A stretch of DNA of 64,000 bases from NCBI GenBank assembly GCA_937125225.1, contig CAKZLE010000023.1, positions 124,001 through 188,000 of the forward strand. Direction: 5' to 3'. Of the stretch, positions 3,396 to 40,225 are shown one piece after another; the stretch's first letter is position 1; every line of letters starts with the position of its first letter. The position numbers and the translations under genes were made by a program. The DNA is from an uncultured Spirochaetia bacterium (GTDB taxonomy: Bacteria; Spirochaetota; Spirochaetia; CAKZLE01). A model generated the notes under the pieces. That model had not been told where the DNA came from. It made no database searches and saw only the letters and a program-made list of their open reading frames with translations.

Positions 3396-3426
3396 TTGAC
3401 AAGTAGAAATCATTATGTATATAATG
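3396..3426 (+). promoter_or_regulatory. Promoter and dyad of the HxlR regulator gene
   Basis: TTGACA (3396-3401), 18-base spacer, TATAAT (3420-3425). The -10 lies inside a perfect inverted repeat CATTAT-GTAT-ATAATG (3411-3426), an arrangement expected for an autorepressor. The shared 10-mer TGTATATAAT sits at 3416-3425. Confidence 0.65.
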
Positions 3427-3880: not shown

Positions 3881-4192
3881 CTATAGATAAAGGCTAAGAG
3901 CCTCTCTGATCGCATCATCTCCCGGGAATCCCCCATAGAACAGAAGTGTGCCATTGACCACCATAGCAGGAGTCTGTTTGACTCCGGGATTCTCTTTTGC
4001 CATTGCATGACATCCAGGACAATAACCATAGAGGCAATTGATCTCCACCCCATATTTCATTGATTCTTCTTCAGTCTCAGTCTTTTTGATAGAATAGTCT
4101 AGTTCAAGAGTATCAGCGATCTCTTTGACAAGCTCCATATAGCTATCAGTCACGGCACAGGAAGATCCCAGGATGGTTATTGATGTATTCAT
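3881..4192 (-). CDS. Thioredoxin-fold protein with displaced cysteine cluster
   Basis: A protein of 103 aa resembling the small 'redox-active disulfide' thioredoxin-fold proteins: a first strand ITILGSSC, a central ESMKYGV, then QTPAMVVNG with the cis-proline Pro75 and a GGFPGDDAI end. In those proteins a CxxC follows the first strand. Here only Cys12 remains there (SSCAVT), and instead Cys53, Cys58 and Cys61 form C-x4-C-x2-C with His62 just before the cis-proline loop. This could be a relocated redox centre or a metal site; neither can be told from sequence. It is convergent with the HxlR gene. There is no Shine-Dalgarno sequence, and TATATT (4200-4205) lies 7 bases before the ATG. Confidence 0.75.
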   Translation of the reverse strand: MNTSITILGSSCAVTDSYMELVKEIADTLELDYSIKKTETEEESMKYGVEINCLYGYCPGCHAMAKENPGVKQTPAMVVNGTLLFYGGFPGDDAIREALSLYL

Positions 4193-4401
4193 GAGAAGGA
4201 ATATACCAGATTTTAATGAGGTATCCTAGTATACTGCATTCCTCTGTTCAGTAGGTTCATTCCCATTATTTGATGGGGAACAACCCTAATCGACAATGAT
4301 TGGATACCCCCAGTGCTGAGAACACCTTGTACCGTAAAACAATTTGTGTATTTCTTGTATGAATGATGATATTCTTAAAAATATACTTTGCAGGAGTAGC
4401 C

Positions 4402-6247: not shown

Positions 6248-7159
6248 ATGAAACAGAGACATAAGAATATCTTGGGATGGACAGGAGTCTCGATCACTAT
6301 ACTATTCTCGAGTCTTTGGGCCTACTGGGGTTCTTTTGAGAACTTTCATGAAGGATGGTATGAAGAATCACTCTTATTGAATCTTATGATATTCCTTGTG
6401 CAGTATTTACTTTTCAGTATCTTCTTCACATTCCTAGCATGTATCTCTTTGCGCTGGAAGAAGAGAGGACTGATCCTCCATATACTCATAGGTATGTTCT
6501 GTATCTATTTCTTCTCTGGAGCTAACTTCCAGGTATTGGGCATGCTGATCATCATCCCCTTTGCTCTACTGGGTCTTATGTACTATATCGGAGAGCCTCA
6601 GCCTCGTCGTTGGGCCTATCGTCTGATAATCTTCGTACCCTTGGTGGTAACCCTCGCCATCTCTATTCCCTTGGGGATCAGAGTGTCACATCGAATAGAT
6701 GACAGGGATCTCTCGATGAGGATCATTGAGGGCAATGAGGTGACTCTTGCCTGGGCTCCCCGTGGTCCGGGATGGCCTGATGTGGGCATCTCCTGGGAGG
6801 ATGCGCAGAGGCTCTGTGCTCATCTCTCAGAGGATGGGCTTACGCTAAGTGATGATGAGCTGAATATCTGGAGATTACCCACGGTTGATGAAGCAGTAAG
6901 ATCCATGATGCTCCATGGAGAATCTTCGATGGGAACATGGGACCCCGAAGAGGAGAAAGCCTACTATTCACAGAAGCCAGATAAGGAAAGCCCACTCTGG
7001 GACTTAGGATCCAAGGTGATCTACTACTGGACTTCCGATACCTCGAAAGAAGACCCAGAACAGGCCTACATCATCGTCTATGATGGTGGAGTCTTTGATA
7101 AAAGAAAGTCAAACAGACAGGACTACCAGAGTTTTAGAGCTGTCAAAGAATTACCCTAA
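6248..7159 (+). CDS. Five-span membrane protein with C-terminal Lcl/DUF1566-like domain
   Basis: A protein of 303 aa. Hydrophobic segments at about 8-28, 43-68, 74-90, 94-114 and 124-145 form a membrane module. Residues 150-303 have the look of the DUF1566/Lcl C-terminal domain (ISWEDAQRLCAHLSEDG, WRLPTVDEA, YYWTSDTS), usually found in secreted or surface proteins. With five spans the domain would lie opposite the N-terminus, presumably outside the cytoplasm. It starts 10 bases after the nitroreductase gene and probably ends that operon. Function unknown. Confidence 0.7.
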   Translation: MKQRHKNILGWTGVSITILFSSLWAYWGSFENFHEGWYEESLLLNLMIFLVQYLLFSIFFTFLACISLRWKKRGLILHILIGMFCIYFFSGANFQVLGMLIIIPFALLGLMYYIGEPQPRRWAYRLIIFVPLVVTLAISIPLGIRVSHRIDDRDLSMRIIEGNEVTLAWAPRGPGWPDVGISWEDAQRLCAHLSEDGLTLSDDELNIWRLPTVDEAVRSMMLHGESSMGTWDPEEEKAYYSQKPDKESPLWDLGSKVIYYWTSDTSKEDPEQAYIIVYDGGVFDKRKSNRQDYQSFRAVKELP

Positions 7160-38379: not shown

Positions 38380-39042
38380 CTACTGCTCTCTTCTTAACTC
38401 AGTTATATGCTTTCCTGGAGATACTTTGACCGGACAGACTCTACTACAGATAAAATGCTTATCACAACCAGAGACCCCGGTCTCACCATATGCGAGAGCT
38501 CTCAGCTCTCGTATCTCATCGGGATCCTTTCGTTTGAGTATCTCTGTGTGGATCGCTGCTAATGGTGAGGGGCCGAGAAATCTCTCAGATACCGGACAGG
38601 CTGAGATACAGGATCCACACTCTATACAGTTCTCGAACCTGACCCAACTTGCTATCCCATCAGGAGGGAGTACTTCGGTATTGAGTTCACTATCACGCAA
38701 GTAGGAGTTCACCGGCATCTTCTGTACCATCGAAGAGATATCGACCACGAGGTCTGAGATTATCCTGAAGGAATCTAGAGGTCTCACTGAGATCTTCCGA
38801 TCCGGGAACTCAGAAAGCCTGGTCATACAGGCTAGACGTTGGGTACCCTCGATAATACAGGCACAGGTACCGCAGGAGCCATGATGGCAGGAATGTCTGT
38901 ATTGCAGAGAGCTATCCATGGTATATCGGATCTCATCAAGGGCATCAAGGATCGTGAGTTCATCGCTCAGATTGAGAACGAACTCCATATACTCCTCCTC
39001 TCTCAGAATGGAGATGCTATACATATGTTCATCAGTTCCCAT
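38380..39042 (-). CDS. FrdB/SdhB-like iron-sulfur protein
   Basis: A protein of 220 aa with all ligands of the succinate dehydrogenase/fumarate reductase B subunit. The 2Fe-2S site is Cys52, Cys57, Cys60 and Cys72 (CHHGSCGTCAC). CIECGSCISACPV holds Cys139, Cys142, Cys145 and Cys149. CDKHFICSRVCP holds Cys193, Cys199 and Cys203, spaced as in FrdB. The start is ATG 39042, after GAGGATACC; it overlaps the flavoprotein gene by 11 bases. No FrdA or membrane subunit is nearby, so it probably serves as electron acceptor of the GlpA-like flavoprotein. The physiological acceptor is unknown. Confidence 0.88.
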   Translation of the reverse strand: MGTDEHMYSISILREEEYMEFVLNLSDELTILDALDEIRYTMDSSLQYRHSCHHGSCGTCACIIEGTQRLACMTRLSEFPDRKISVRPLDSFRIISDLVVDISSMVQKMPVNSYLRDSELNTEVLPPDGIASWVRFENCIECGSCISACPVSERFLGPSPLAAIHTEILKRKDPDEIRELRALAYGETGVSGCDKHFICSRVCPVKVSPGKHITELRREQ

Positions 39043-40225
39043 GGTATCCTCTCTTATAGAACTCTCGATGTGAAGGTAGTACAATATCAGCAGTCGTACA
39101 GGGTATCTCTACTCCTATCTTCTTACAGACCATATCGGTGGCCACTTCTCCCATACCTCTGAGAGTCGTAGCCTTCCCTCCTACGATACTCACCATATTG
39201 TCGATCTTATCAGCGATCTCATGATCGATCGCGGCAAAGTCACGACTGAGAGCACGTACATCCTCTGCATCCTGTGAGACCCCATACAGAGGTCTTGCAG
39301 CAGCCCATGCCGTATGGAACTTCTGTTCACTGAAACCAGGGAACATGGCCTCTGCTGATTCATAGAGGAAGGGAATATCTCCCTCATGGATCCGTACGAT
39401 ATCAGGGTCCTCAGAGAGCCATTGGGTAGAACCTATGATAGTCAGTCCTCTCTGAGGTACGATGATATCACCGTCACCTGCCTTATGGAGTCTACTCACC
39501 ACCATATTCGACATCCGCCCCTTCACCACGAGCATCGTCCCAGGAGAGGGAGCGACCTGTAAAGGAATCCCTGCCATCTGAGCGATCTGTCCTGCCCAGG
39601 GACCTGCAGCATTGATGAAAAGATCTGCATCAATTGTACGCTGTTCCCCATTCGTATGATCGACGACCGAGATGGAATCTATATGTTCATCACTCGTATT
39701 GATGGCTATGACCTCTGTATAGGGACATATCTGTGCATTTTGAGTCTCAAGTGCGCCTGCAGCGAAACTGATAACCAATCGCCATGGGTCGATCGTACCA
39801 TCTGGTACGACTACCGCAGCTTTGATCTTCACAGAAAGGGCCTTCTCATAGTTCAAAGCTTGTGGTACGGGAATCTCCTGAGCTGGAATATCTGATTCCA
39901 GGCAGGCCTCGATGAACTGTTCACGATAGGACATATCTTCATCATCAACTGCGACGAAGAGCCCCTTATTATACTCTATAGCCTGTGGGGCGATCTTTCT
40001 TAGGATCTCACTCTCATGCATACATTCACGGGCAATATTCCTGTCACCCATAGCATAGCGTGCACCGCAGTGAAGCTGGCCATGATGTCTTCCCGTCGTT
40101 CCGGAAGTCAACTCCCCACGCTCTATGAGGGTCACTTTGAAACCACGTCTACAAAGATCGTACATGGTGGCGATTCCCGTCCCCCCACCTCCGATCACTA
40201 CGATGTGACCGAGTCTATTACTCAT
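39032..40225 (-). CDS. GlpA-like FAD-dependent glycerol-3-phosphate dehydrogenase
   Basis: A protein of 397 aa of the DAO family. HIVVIGGGGTGIATMYDL is the FAD-binding motif, and ERGELTSGTTGRHHGQLHCGARY is the active-site region characteristic of anaerobic GlpA. INAAGPWAGQIAQ and IVGGKATTLRGMGE are also typical. GlpA normally oxidises glycerol-3-phosphate to dihydroxyacetone phosphate with GlpB and GlpC. Here neither is present, and an FrdB-like protein is encoded in overlap instead. The C-terminal [2Fe-2S]-type domain of longer GlpA proteins is missing. Another 2-hydroxy acid substrate is possible. Confidence 0.85.
   Translation of the reverse strand: MSNRLGHIVVIGGGGTGIATMYDLCRRGFKVTLIERGELTSGTTGRHHGQLHCGARYAMGDRNIARECMHESEILRKIAPQAIEYNKGLFVAVDDEDMSYREQFIEACLESDIPAQEIPVPQALNYEKALSVKIKAAVVVPDGTIDPWRLVISFAAGALETQNAQICPYTEVIAINTSDEHIDSISVVDHTNGEQRTIDADLFINAAGPWAGQIAQMAGIPLQVAPSPGTMLVVKGRMSNMVVSRLHKAGDGDIIVPQRGLTIIGSTQWLSEDPDIVRIHEGDIPFLYESAEAMFPGFSEQKFHTAWAAARPLYGVSQDAEDVRALSRDFAAIDHEIADKIDNMVSIVGGKATTLRGMGEVATDMVCKKIGVEIPCTTADIVLPSHREFYKRGYHGN

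Follow-up and report, generated by a model that had tools for sequence, protein, structure and literature searches.

A Thioredoxin_3-type protein with a lone active-site cysteine and a three-cysteine insert before the cis-proline: a possible iron-sulfur site

The window, a stretch of 64,000 nucleotides from an uncultured Spirochaetia bacterium (assembly GCA_937125225.1, contig CAKZLE010000023.1, positions 124,001 to 188,000 of the forward strand), carries on its minus strand a small gene for a Thioredoxin_3-type protein that has a single active-site cysteine and three further cysteines in an inserted loop (Table 1). The gene converges on that of an HxlR regulator, whose closest NCBIfam models are redox regulators matched at sub-threshold level, and a nitroreductase gene lies nearby. 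A promoter-like site precedes the regulator gene. On the other side, TGGTATATT lies 7 bases from the ATG of the small gene and no Shine-Dalgarno-like stretch was seen, so that the transcript could be leaderless. Two other proteins of the window are also listed, an iron-sulfur protein and a protein with a DUF7670-like N-terminus. The reading of the small gene as a chance frame was ruled out by its relatives (E = 3e-30 and 2.4e-23), and a lipoprotein reading of its LGSSC stretch was rejected by eye, as LGSSC is strand 1 of the fold.

Table 1. Positions of the gene, its residues and other features in the window
Feature	Position	Strand	Basis
Thioredoxin_3-type protein, 103 aa, stop included	3881..4192	-	ORF with ATG start, Pfam, relatives
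Cys12, sole Cys left of CxxC; proposed fourth ligand or attacking thiol	4157..4159	-	invariant in 3/3 members
Thr15, replacing the second active-site Cys (both relatives have Ser)	4148..4150	-	alignment, cysteine count
22-residue insert linking helix 2 to the cis-Pro strand (about residues 52-73)	3974..4039	-	alignments
CLYGYCPGC, i.e. C-x2-G-x-C-x2-C: Cys53, Gly56, Cys58, Cys61	4010..4036	-	alignment, pattern scan
Pro75, cis-Pro of the fold	3968..3970	-	invariant; aligns with the Thioredoxin_3 cis-Pro; cis state as expected from the fold
TGGTATATT, ending 7 bases before the ORF's ATG	4193-4210	-	by eye; absent from the promoter-scan list
Promoter-like site upstream of the HxlR regulator	3396-3425	+	12/12 match to TTGACA-18-TATAAT
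Succinate dehydrogenase/fumarate reductase-type iron-sulfur protein	~38380-39084	-	CHHGSCGTC at 38863-38889
Protein with DUF7670-like N-terminus and Lcl_C-type C-terminal domain	6248-7159	+	N-terminus just sub-threshold, C-terminal domain just over

The domain itself belongs to a known family. PF13192 Thioredoxin_3 was matched with 45.5 bits against a cut-off of 24.8, in two stretches of which the best covers residues 4-50 and ends at the insert, and all three members of the insert family described below match it at E <= 1; the NCBIfam model TIGR00412 (MTH895/ArsE) was matched below its threshold (40.7 bits against a cut-off of 62). The author of an earlier note on this DNA knew of no described family with this arrangement, which holds for the arrangement, as neither Pfam nor NCBIfam contains a family with a one-cysteine site and a three-cysteine insert, and fails for the domain. 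Its assignment of a thioredoxin fold is supported by the predicted models: AlphaFold predictions for the window protein and for its relative from Ca. Thalassospirochaeta sargassi, both built from the same seven sequences, had mean pLDDT values of 83.1 and 82.6, and a fold search matched the predicted core to 1ilo (Z 9.2, rmsd 2.0, 76 of 77 residues aligned). The insert is the low-confidence region in both models (block means 54 and 61 in one, 55 and 64 in the other). There, two short strand pieces are predicted at the base of the insert (residues 49-50 and 72-73 of the window protein), and a predicted helix begins at or beside CPGC (residues 60-67 in one model, 58-66 in the other). In the models it is certain that the insert joins the fold one or two residues ahead of Pro75. 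Neither fold search had an iron-sulfur protein among its best 50 rows, an absence that carries no weight.

The ORF translation gave the same residue numbers as the earlier note (Cys12, Cys53, Cys58, Cys61, His62 and Pro75), and alignment with two relatives bore out two of its main claims: the active-site CxxC is reduced to one cysteine, being CxxT in the window protein and CxxS in both relatives, and three cysteines, found here to be invariant in all three members, cluster directly before the cis-Pro. The insert starts after the YGV that closes helix 2, and its core reads CLYGYCPGC in the window protein and CLLGYCPGC and CLFGYCPGC in the relatives (consensus CLxGYCPGC); the residues invariant in 3/3 members include Cys12, Cys53, Leu54, Gly56, Tyr57, Cys58, Pro59, Gly60, Cys61, Pro75 and Ala76. 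Residue 62, which had been counted as part of the core, is His in two members and Tyr in the third (G450, L030), so that the 'CH' lies outside the conserved core, and His62 was ruled out as a ligand. No cysteine occurs downstream of Cys61 in the window protein and, to judge from the alignment, Cys12 would be the sole candidate for a fourth conserved ligand.

The protein of Ca. Thalassospirochaeta sargassi (G023, L029) is 50-52% identical to the window protein (E = 3e-30), and the third member, from G450 of the same genus, is 44% identical (profile E = 2.4e-23). The genome sets searched for further members overlap. Among the genomes of the window's relatives, 2/60 had a match at E <= 0.001, these being the own genome of the window (G000) and G023. 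In the phylum, a two-sequence profile matched 27/392 genomes at the same threshold, full-length only in these two; the other 25 loci hold a CxxC protein lacking the insert in 21 cases and in L022, L025 and L027, while L018, the remaining one, has the CxxC and no recognisable cis-Pro part. A profile search of the class gave 3/394 genomes at E <= 1e-6, with 2/7 in the order of G023 and 1/2 in the order of the own genome. One genome of 46 in another class of the phylum (G181) had an N-terminal match at the place of the CxxC protein in L005, and none matched in two further classes (0/31 and 0/1). In the contig scans of named genomes, only Ca. Thalassospirochaeta sargassi carries a relative. Within the window's class and phylum, the insert family is thus rare. 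By its sequences it is a true lineage forming one clade: in a tree calculated with the insert left out, a branch supported at 95/94 separates the three members, themselves on long branches, from the other sequences. Within the clade it is the window protein, and not that of the congener G450, that groups with the protein of G023 (92/77), a hint of transfer or of two old copies; this pairing is weak because few columns were available.

A phage or plasmid gene reading was ruled out by searches of plasmid, phage and viral-contig sequences. No relative was found by tblastn against plasmids and phages at E 1e-5 or among viral contigs by the three-member profile. With the L002 protein as the query, plasmids gave 19 records at E <= 10, and those covering at least 80% of the query span about 62-78 codons, a length that leaves no room for the insert. 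In viral contigs, 18 loci matched a DNA pattern encoding C-x2-G-x-C-P-G-C-H, with no thioredoxin core in the frames displayed; one of these frames (L043) resembles an anaerobic ribonucleotide reductase activase.

Gene neighbourhoods differ among the three genomes, by which a function from context was ruled out, and no gene linkage is common to all three. At the G450 locus (L030/L064), the gene is preceded by a TetR gene and an FMN-reductase-like gene, the latter at a distance of 33 bases, and a gene of the NADH:flavin-oxidoreductase family converges with it; in L029 the end of the gene runs into the start of a putative acetate kinase gene, identified from its translation. Flavoenzymes are thus near the gene in 2/3 genomes, in keeping with an electron carrier or with a role in stress. 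The host also carries an ordinary CxxC copy (L031) beside an ArsC-like gene and a permease gene, both named from their translations.

The relationship between the insert and the active site was evaluated by counting residues in 65 loci (L001-L028, L030, L031, L059-L063 and L067-L096), which yielded 67 distinct Thioredoxin_3 cores: 63 with CxxC, the three CxxT/S members and one incomplete frame. All 63 complete CxxC proteins have exactly 36 residues from the CxxC to the residue before the cis-Pro and no insert, against 57 or 58 residues in the corresponding interval of the CxxT/S members, a count that leans to well-matching CxxC proteins because L067-L096 represent the top 30 by score among all matches. 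L018, with no recognisable cis-Pro, was left out, as were copies in L014, L019 and L021 that have neither the first cysteine nor the insert and show that cysteine loss without the insert does occur. The latter three loci, from genus g103 of the same phylum, contain several Thioredoxin_3 copies each, one of which lacks both active-site cysteines yet retains YGVMTLPALIVN or YGVMTLPALIIN. In the counted set, the insert and the loss of the second active-site cysteine go together (3/3 versus 63/63). Accordingly, the cysteines have not moved, as the earlier note had it; rather, the resolving cysteine was replaced by Thr or Ser, and a block of 21-22 residues with three cysteines was inserted. In the accessible part of a thioredoxin-fold census (PMC2757866), only the strand 2-helix 2 connection is said to tolerate insertions easily, which makes the place before the cis-Pro an unusual one; the same text suggests that the cis-Pro might guard the active site against metals.

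The word C-x2-G-x-C-x2-C was also searched in the own genome, whose DNA contains it 29 times, compared with 8 times for a reversed control pattern. Seven occurrences include a stop, 16 lie in open frames of less than 100 aa and six in frames of at least 100 aa, a limit chosen after the list was seen; the longest short frame (95 aa), the one of the 16 covered by Pfam, matched no family. One of the six longer frames is the window protein, and the five others look like [2Fe-2S] proteins: L130, L146 and L150 are XDH-type small subunits (Fer2_2 over the cut-off), L143 is a succinate dehydrogenase/fumarate reductase iron-sulfur protein (Fer2_3 and TIGR00384 over the cut-off), and L131 (contig C6) is a 536-aa frame in which dihydroorotate dehydrogenase is joined to an electron-transfer-subunit-like part ending in CGIGMCGEC (DHO_dh over the cut-off, DHODB_Fe-S_bind at 13.8 against 23.9, NCBIfam electron-transfer subunit sub-threshold). 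The residue after the second loop cysteine is Gly in 5/5 of these examples and Pro59 in the window protein; the plant-type motif of PROSITE has a small residue there. The spacing of plant-type/XDH-type [2Fe-2S] proteins is given as C-X4-C-X2-C-X29-C in an excerpt of PMC11138216, and, in the part of PMC8928951 that was available, C-X4-C-X2-C rows are classed under 2Fe-2S, with the fourth cysteine downstream in these subtypes.

Our preferred reading, to which we give a probability of about 45%, is that the window protein is a four-cysteine iron-sulfur protein with the three insert cysteines and the retained Cys12 as ligands, disulfide exchange having been given up. We infer that a Thioredoxin_3 protein would thereby have abandoned its original chemistry, Cys53, Cys58 and Cys61 of the inserted loop and Cys12 of the former active site together holding one cluster at the position of the former active-site disulfide, beside the cis-Pro. 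The cluster would most likely be of the [2Fe-2S] type, possibly [4Fe-4S], and the protein might exchange single electrons with a flavoenzyme or act as a sensor of oxygen or electrophiles. We favour this reading because the other five frames of at least 100 aa with the same word in the own genome look like [2Fe-2S] proteins, because the invariant cysteines of the three members are exactly residues 12, 53, 58 and 61, because the insert goes together with the loss of the second active-site cysteine, because both places also carry cysteines in thioredoxin-like ferredoxins, whose profile the family matches better than any of 200 shuffles, and because a loop extension has a precedent in glutaredoxins, as far as the accessible text of PMC7351949 describes it. 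Counting against a cluster, Cys12 lies 40 residues upstream, as opposed to the downstream fourth cysteine of the subtypes in the available part of PMC8928951. Also against it, Pro59 follows Cys58 where the five ferredoxin-type loops of the own genome have Gly, Pfam at E <= 1 gave no iron-sulfur family for any of the three members, the insert is modelled at low confidence, and the hhalign likeness to the thioredoxin-like ferredoxins is of limited probability (71-74%), pairs Cys12 with the second of their cysteines and partly persists when the insert is removed. Lastly, CPGC, where a helix is predicted to begin, also fits a dithiol site.

That last point leads to the strongest alternative, a rebuilt thiol-disulfide centre in which Cys12 attacks, Cys53 resolves and Cys58-Pro-Gly-Cys61 passes the disulfide on to a reductase, i.e. 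a two-step relay. CPGC stands at the predicted helix start in both models, and a CPGC so placed resembles the sites of thioredoxin and glutaredoxin. Four cysteines make two pairs, flavin enzymes and a regulator resembling redox regulators are among the neighbours, and the thioredoxin fold is known to carry CxxS as an active site, namely in ArsC, according to the accessible part of PMC2757866. On the other hand, such a relay has no need of the glycine and the spacing of C-x2-G-x-C-x2-C, a word that marks [2Fe-2S] proteins in the own genome, Cys53 stands outside any CxxC, and the three genomes have no linked gene for a partner reductase in common. We consider the relay unlikely, though a serious competitor. 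Less probable still is that the same cysteines form a zinc or arsenite-type metalloid site, either structural or in a thioredoxin-fold metal carrier like ArsD. Four conserved cysteines would suit zinc, ArsD chains appear among the weak profile and fold matches, and the CxxC copy of the host adjoins the ArsC-like gene and the permease gene, but no arsenic or metal-resistance gene was found among the Pfam-typed neighbours in the window and L030, and the ArsD cysteine triad is in the strand 1 loop, not before the cis-Pro. Drift of a CxxC protein to loss of function, with an insert of no special role, would fit the rare and patchy occurrence (3/394 class genomes), the long branches and the cysteine-less copies in L014, L019 and L021, but is very improbable given that CLxGYCPGC is kept in 3/3 members while the relatives are only 44-50% identical to the window protein overall.

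The earlier note's reading of a redox or metal centre is thus reasonable, its metal or Fe-S variant being plausible, and we narrow it to a Cys4 site with a 1+3 set of cysteines that most likely binds an iron-sulfur cluster, which is unproven. What is new is the arrangement of CxxT/S with a three-cysteine insert; the Thioredoxin_3 domain was already known. A title and abstract search of the literature, with most subscription journals outside its scope, gave no description of a 1+3-cysteine thioredoxin arrangement, and an insertion of three cysteines beside the cis-Pro, coupled to a lost resolving cysteine, lies outside the tolerated site in the part of the census at hand (PMC2757866). If a cluster is really bound, the family would be a type of electron carrier or sensor that has gone unrecognised, and would illustrate how evolution can lead by simple steps from disulfide to iron-sulfur chemistry; if the cysteines work as a dithiol relay, it would be an unusual two-step thiol relay within one small domain. 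At 103 residues, the protein is easy to express and test.

Compared with known systems, the family is closest to Thioredoxin_3 proteins of the MTH895/ArsE type (TIGR00412; 1ilo), with which it has in common the fold, the core length and the LG-x-x-C, YGV and TPA-x-VV-x-G blocks; hhalign of the insert family to CxxC Thioredoxin_3 members gave 99% and a score of 107, with TPA aligned. MTH895/ArsE has CxxC and no insert, in contrast to the CxxT/S and the 21-22-residue three-cysteine insert of the window family.

The thioredoxin-like ferredoxins of PF01257 (Shethna protein I, Aquifex ferredoxin, NuoE/hydrogenase subunits) share with the window family a thioredoxin-type topology and cysteines after strand 1 and before the Pro of strand 3, but they have 2+2 cysteines, whereas the window family has 1+3 (C-x4-C-x2-C) and a longer loop. 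According to the accessible text of PMC8561814, Shethna protein I has a thioredoxin-like fold with its [2Fe-2S] cluster between the loops after strand 1 and strand 2, the ligands Cys11, 24, 56 and 60, and a cis peptide at 63-64. Among the PF01257 loci of the window's relatives, 23/25 were readable; in these a C-x4-C follows strand 1 and a C-x3-C immediately precedes the [AG]P of strand 3, a layout that the search expression itself demands. The own genome has six 2Fe-2S_thioredx (PF01257) matches, two of them over 160 bits, which suggests several complexes of hydrogenase or NADH-dehydrogenase type. None of the three insert-family members matches PF01257 in Pfam at E <= 1. In a profile comparison by hhalign, the family scored 31.3 against a nine-sequence PF01257 profile (probability 71-74% across runs), compared with 18.4 (5%) for CxxC Thioredoxin_3, and 0/200 column shuffles reached 30.9 (best 23.8). 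The score fell to 23.9 without the insert, level with the best shuffle, to 24.1 with the insert cysteines masked and to 26.4 with Cys12 masked; Cys12 is paired with the second, not the first, cysteine of these ferredoxins. We take the resemblance to concern the site and not to prove common ancestry, because the family matches Thioredoxin_3 far better (score 107 versus 31). If the iron-sulfur reading is right, it may represent a new placement of a cluster on the thioredoxin fold, a tentative proposal in which a lone active-site cysteine and an inserted loop would provide 1+3 ligands, unlike the 2+2 of thioredoxin-like ferredoxins and unlike glutaredoxins, and one insertion and one substitution would have converted a disulfide enzyme into a carrier or sensor.

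Plant-type and XDH-type [2Fe-2S] domains (PF00111, PF13085) have the C-x2-G-x-C-x2-C loop in common with the window family but differ in fold, in the downstream position of the fourth cysteine and in the small residue where the window family has Pro; Pfam gave no Fer2 match for the window protein. ArsD carries its cysteine triad in the strand 1 loop, where the window family has a single cysteine. In CGFS glutaredoxins, as in the window family, the second active-site cysteine is replaced and an extra loop lies beside the active cysteine; their cluster is situated between two chains and is held with glutathione, unlike that of the proposed Cys4 site. The extra loop is of 5 residues in CGFS glutaredoxins, and a loop extension beside the active cysteine is described in the available part of PMC7351949 as the key determinant of oxidoreductase versus Fe-S function.
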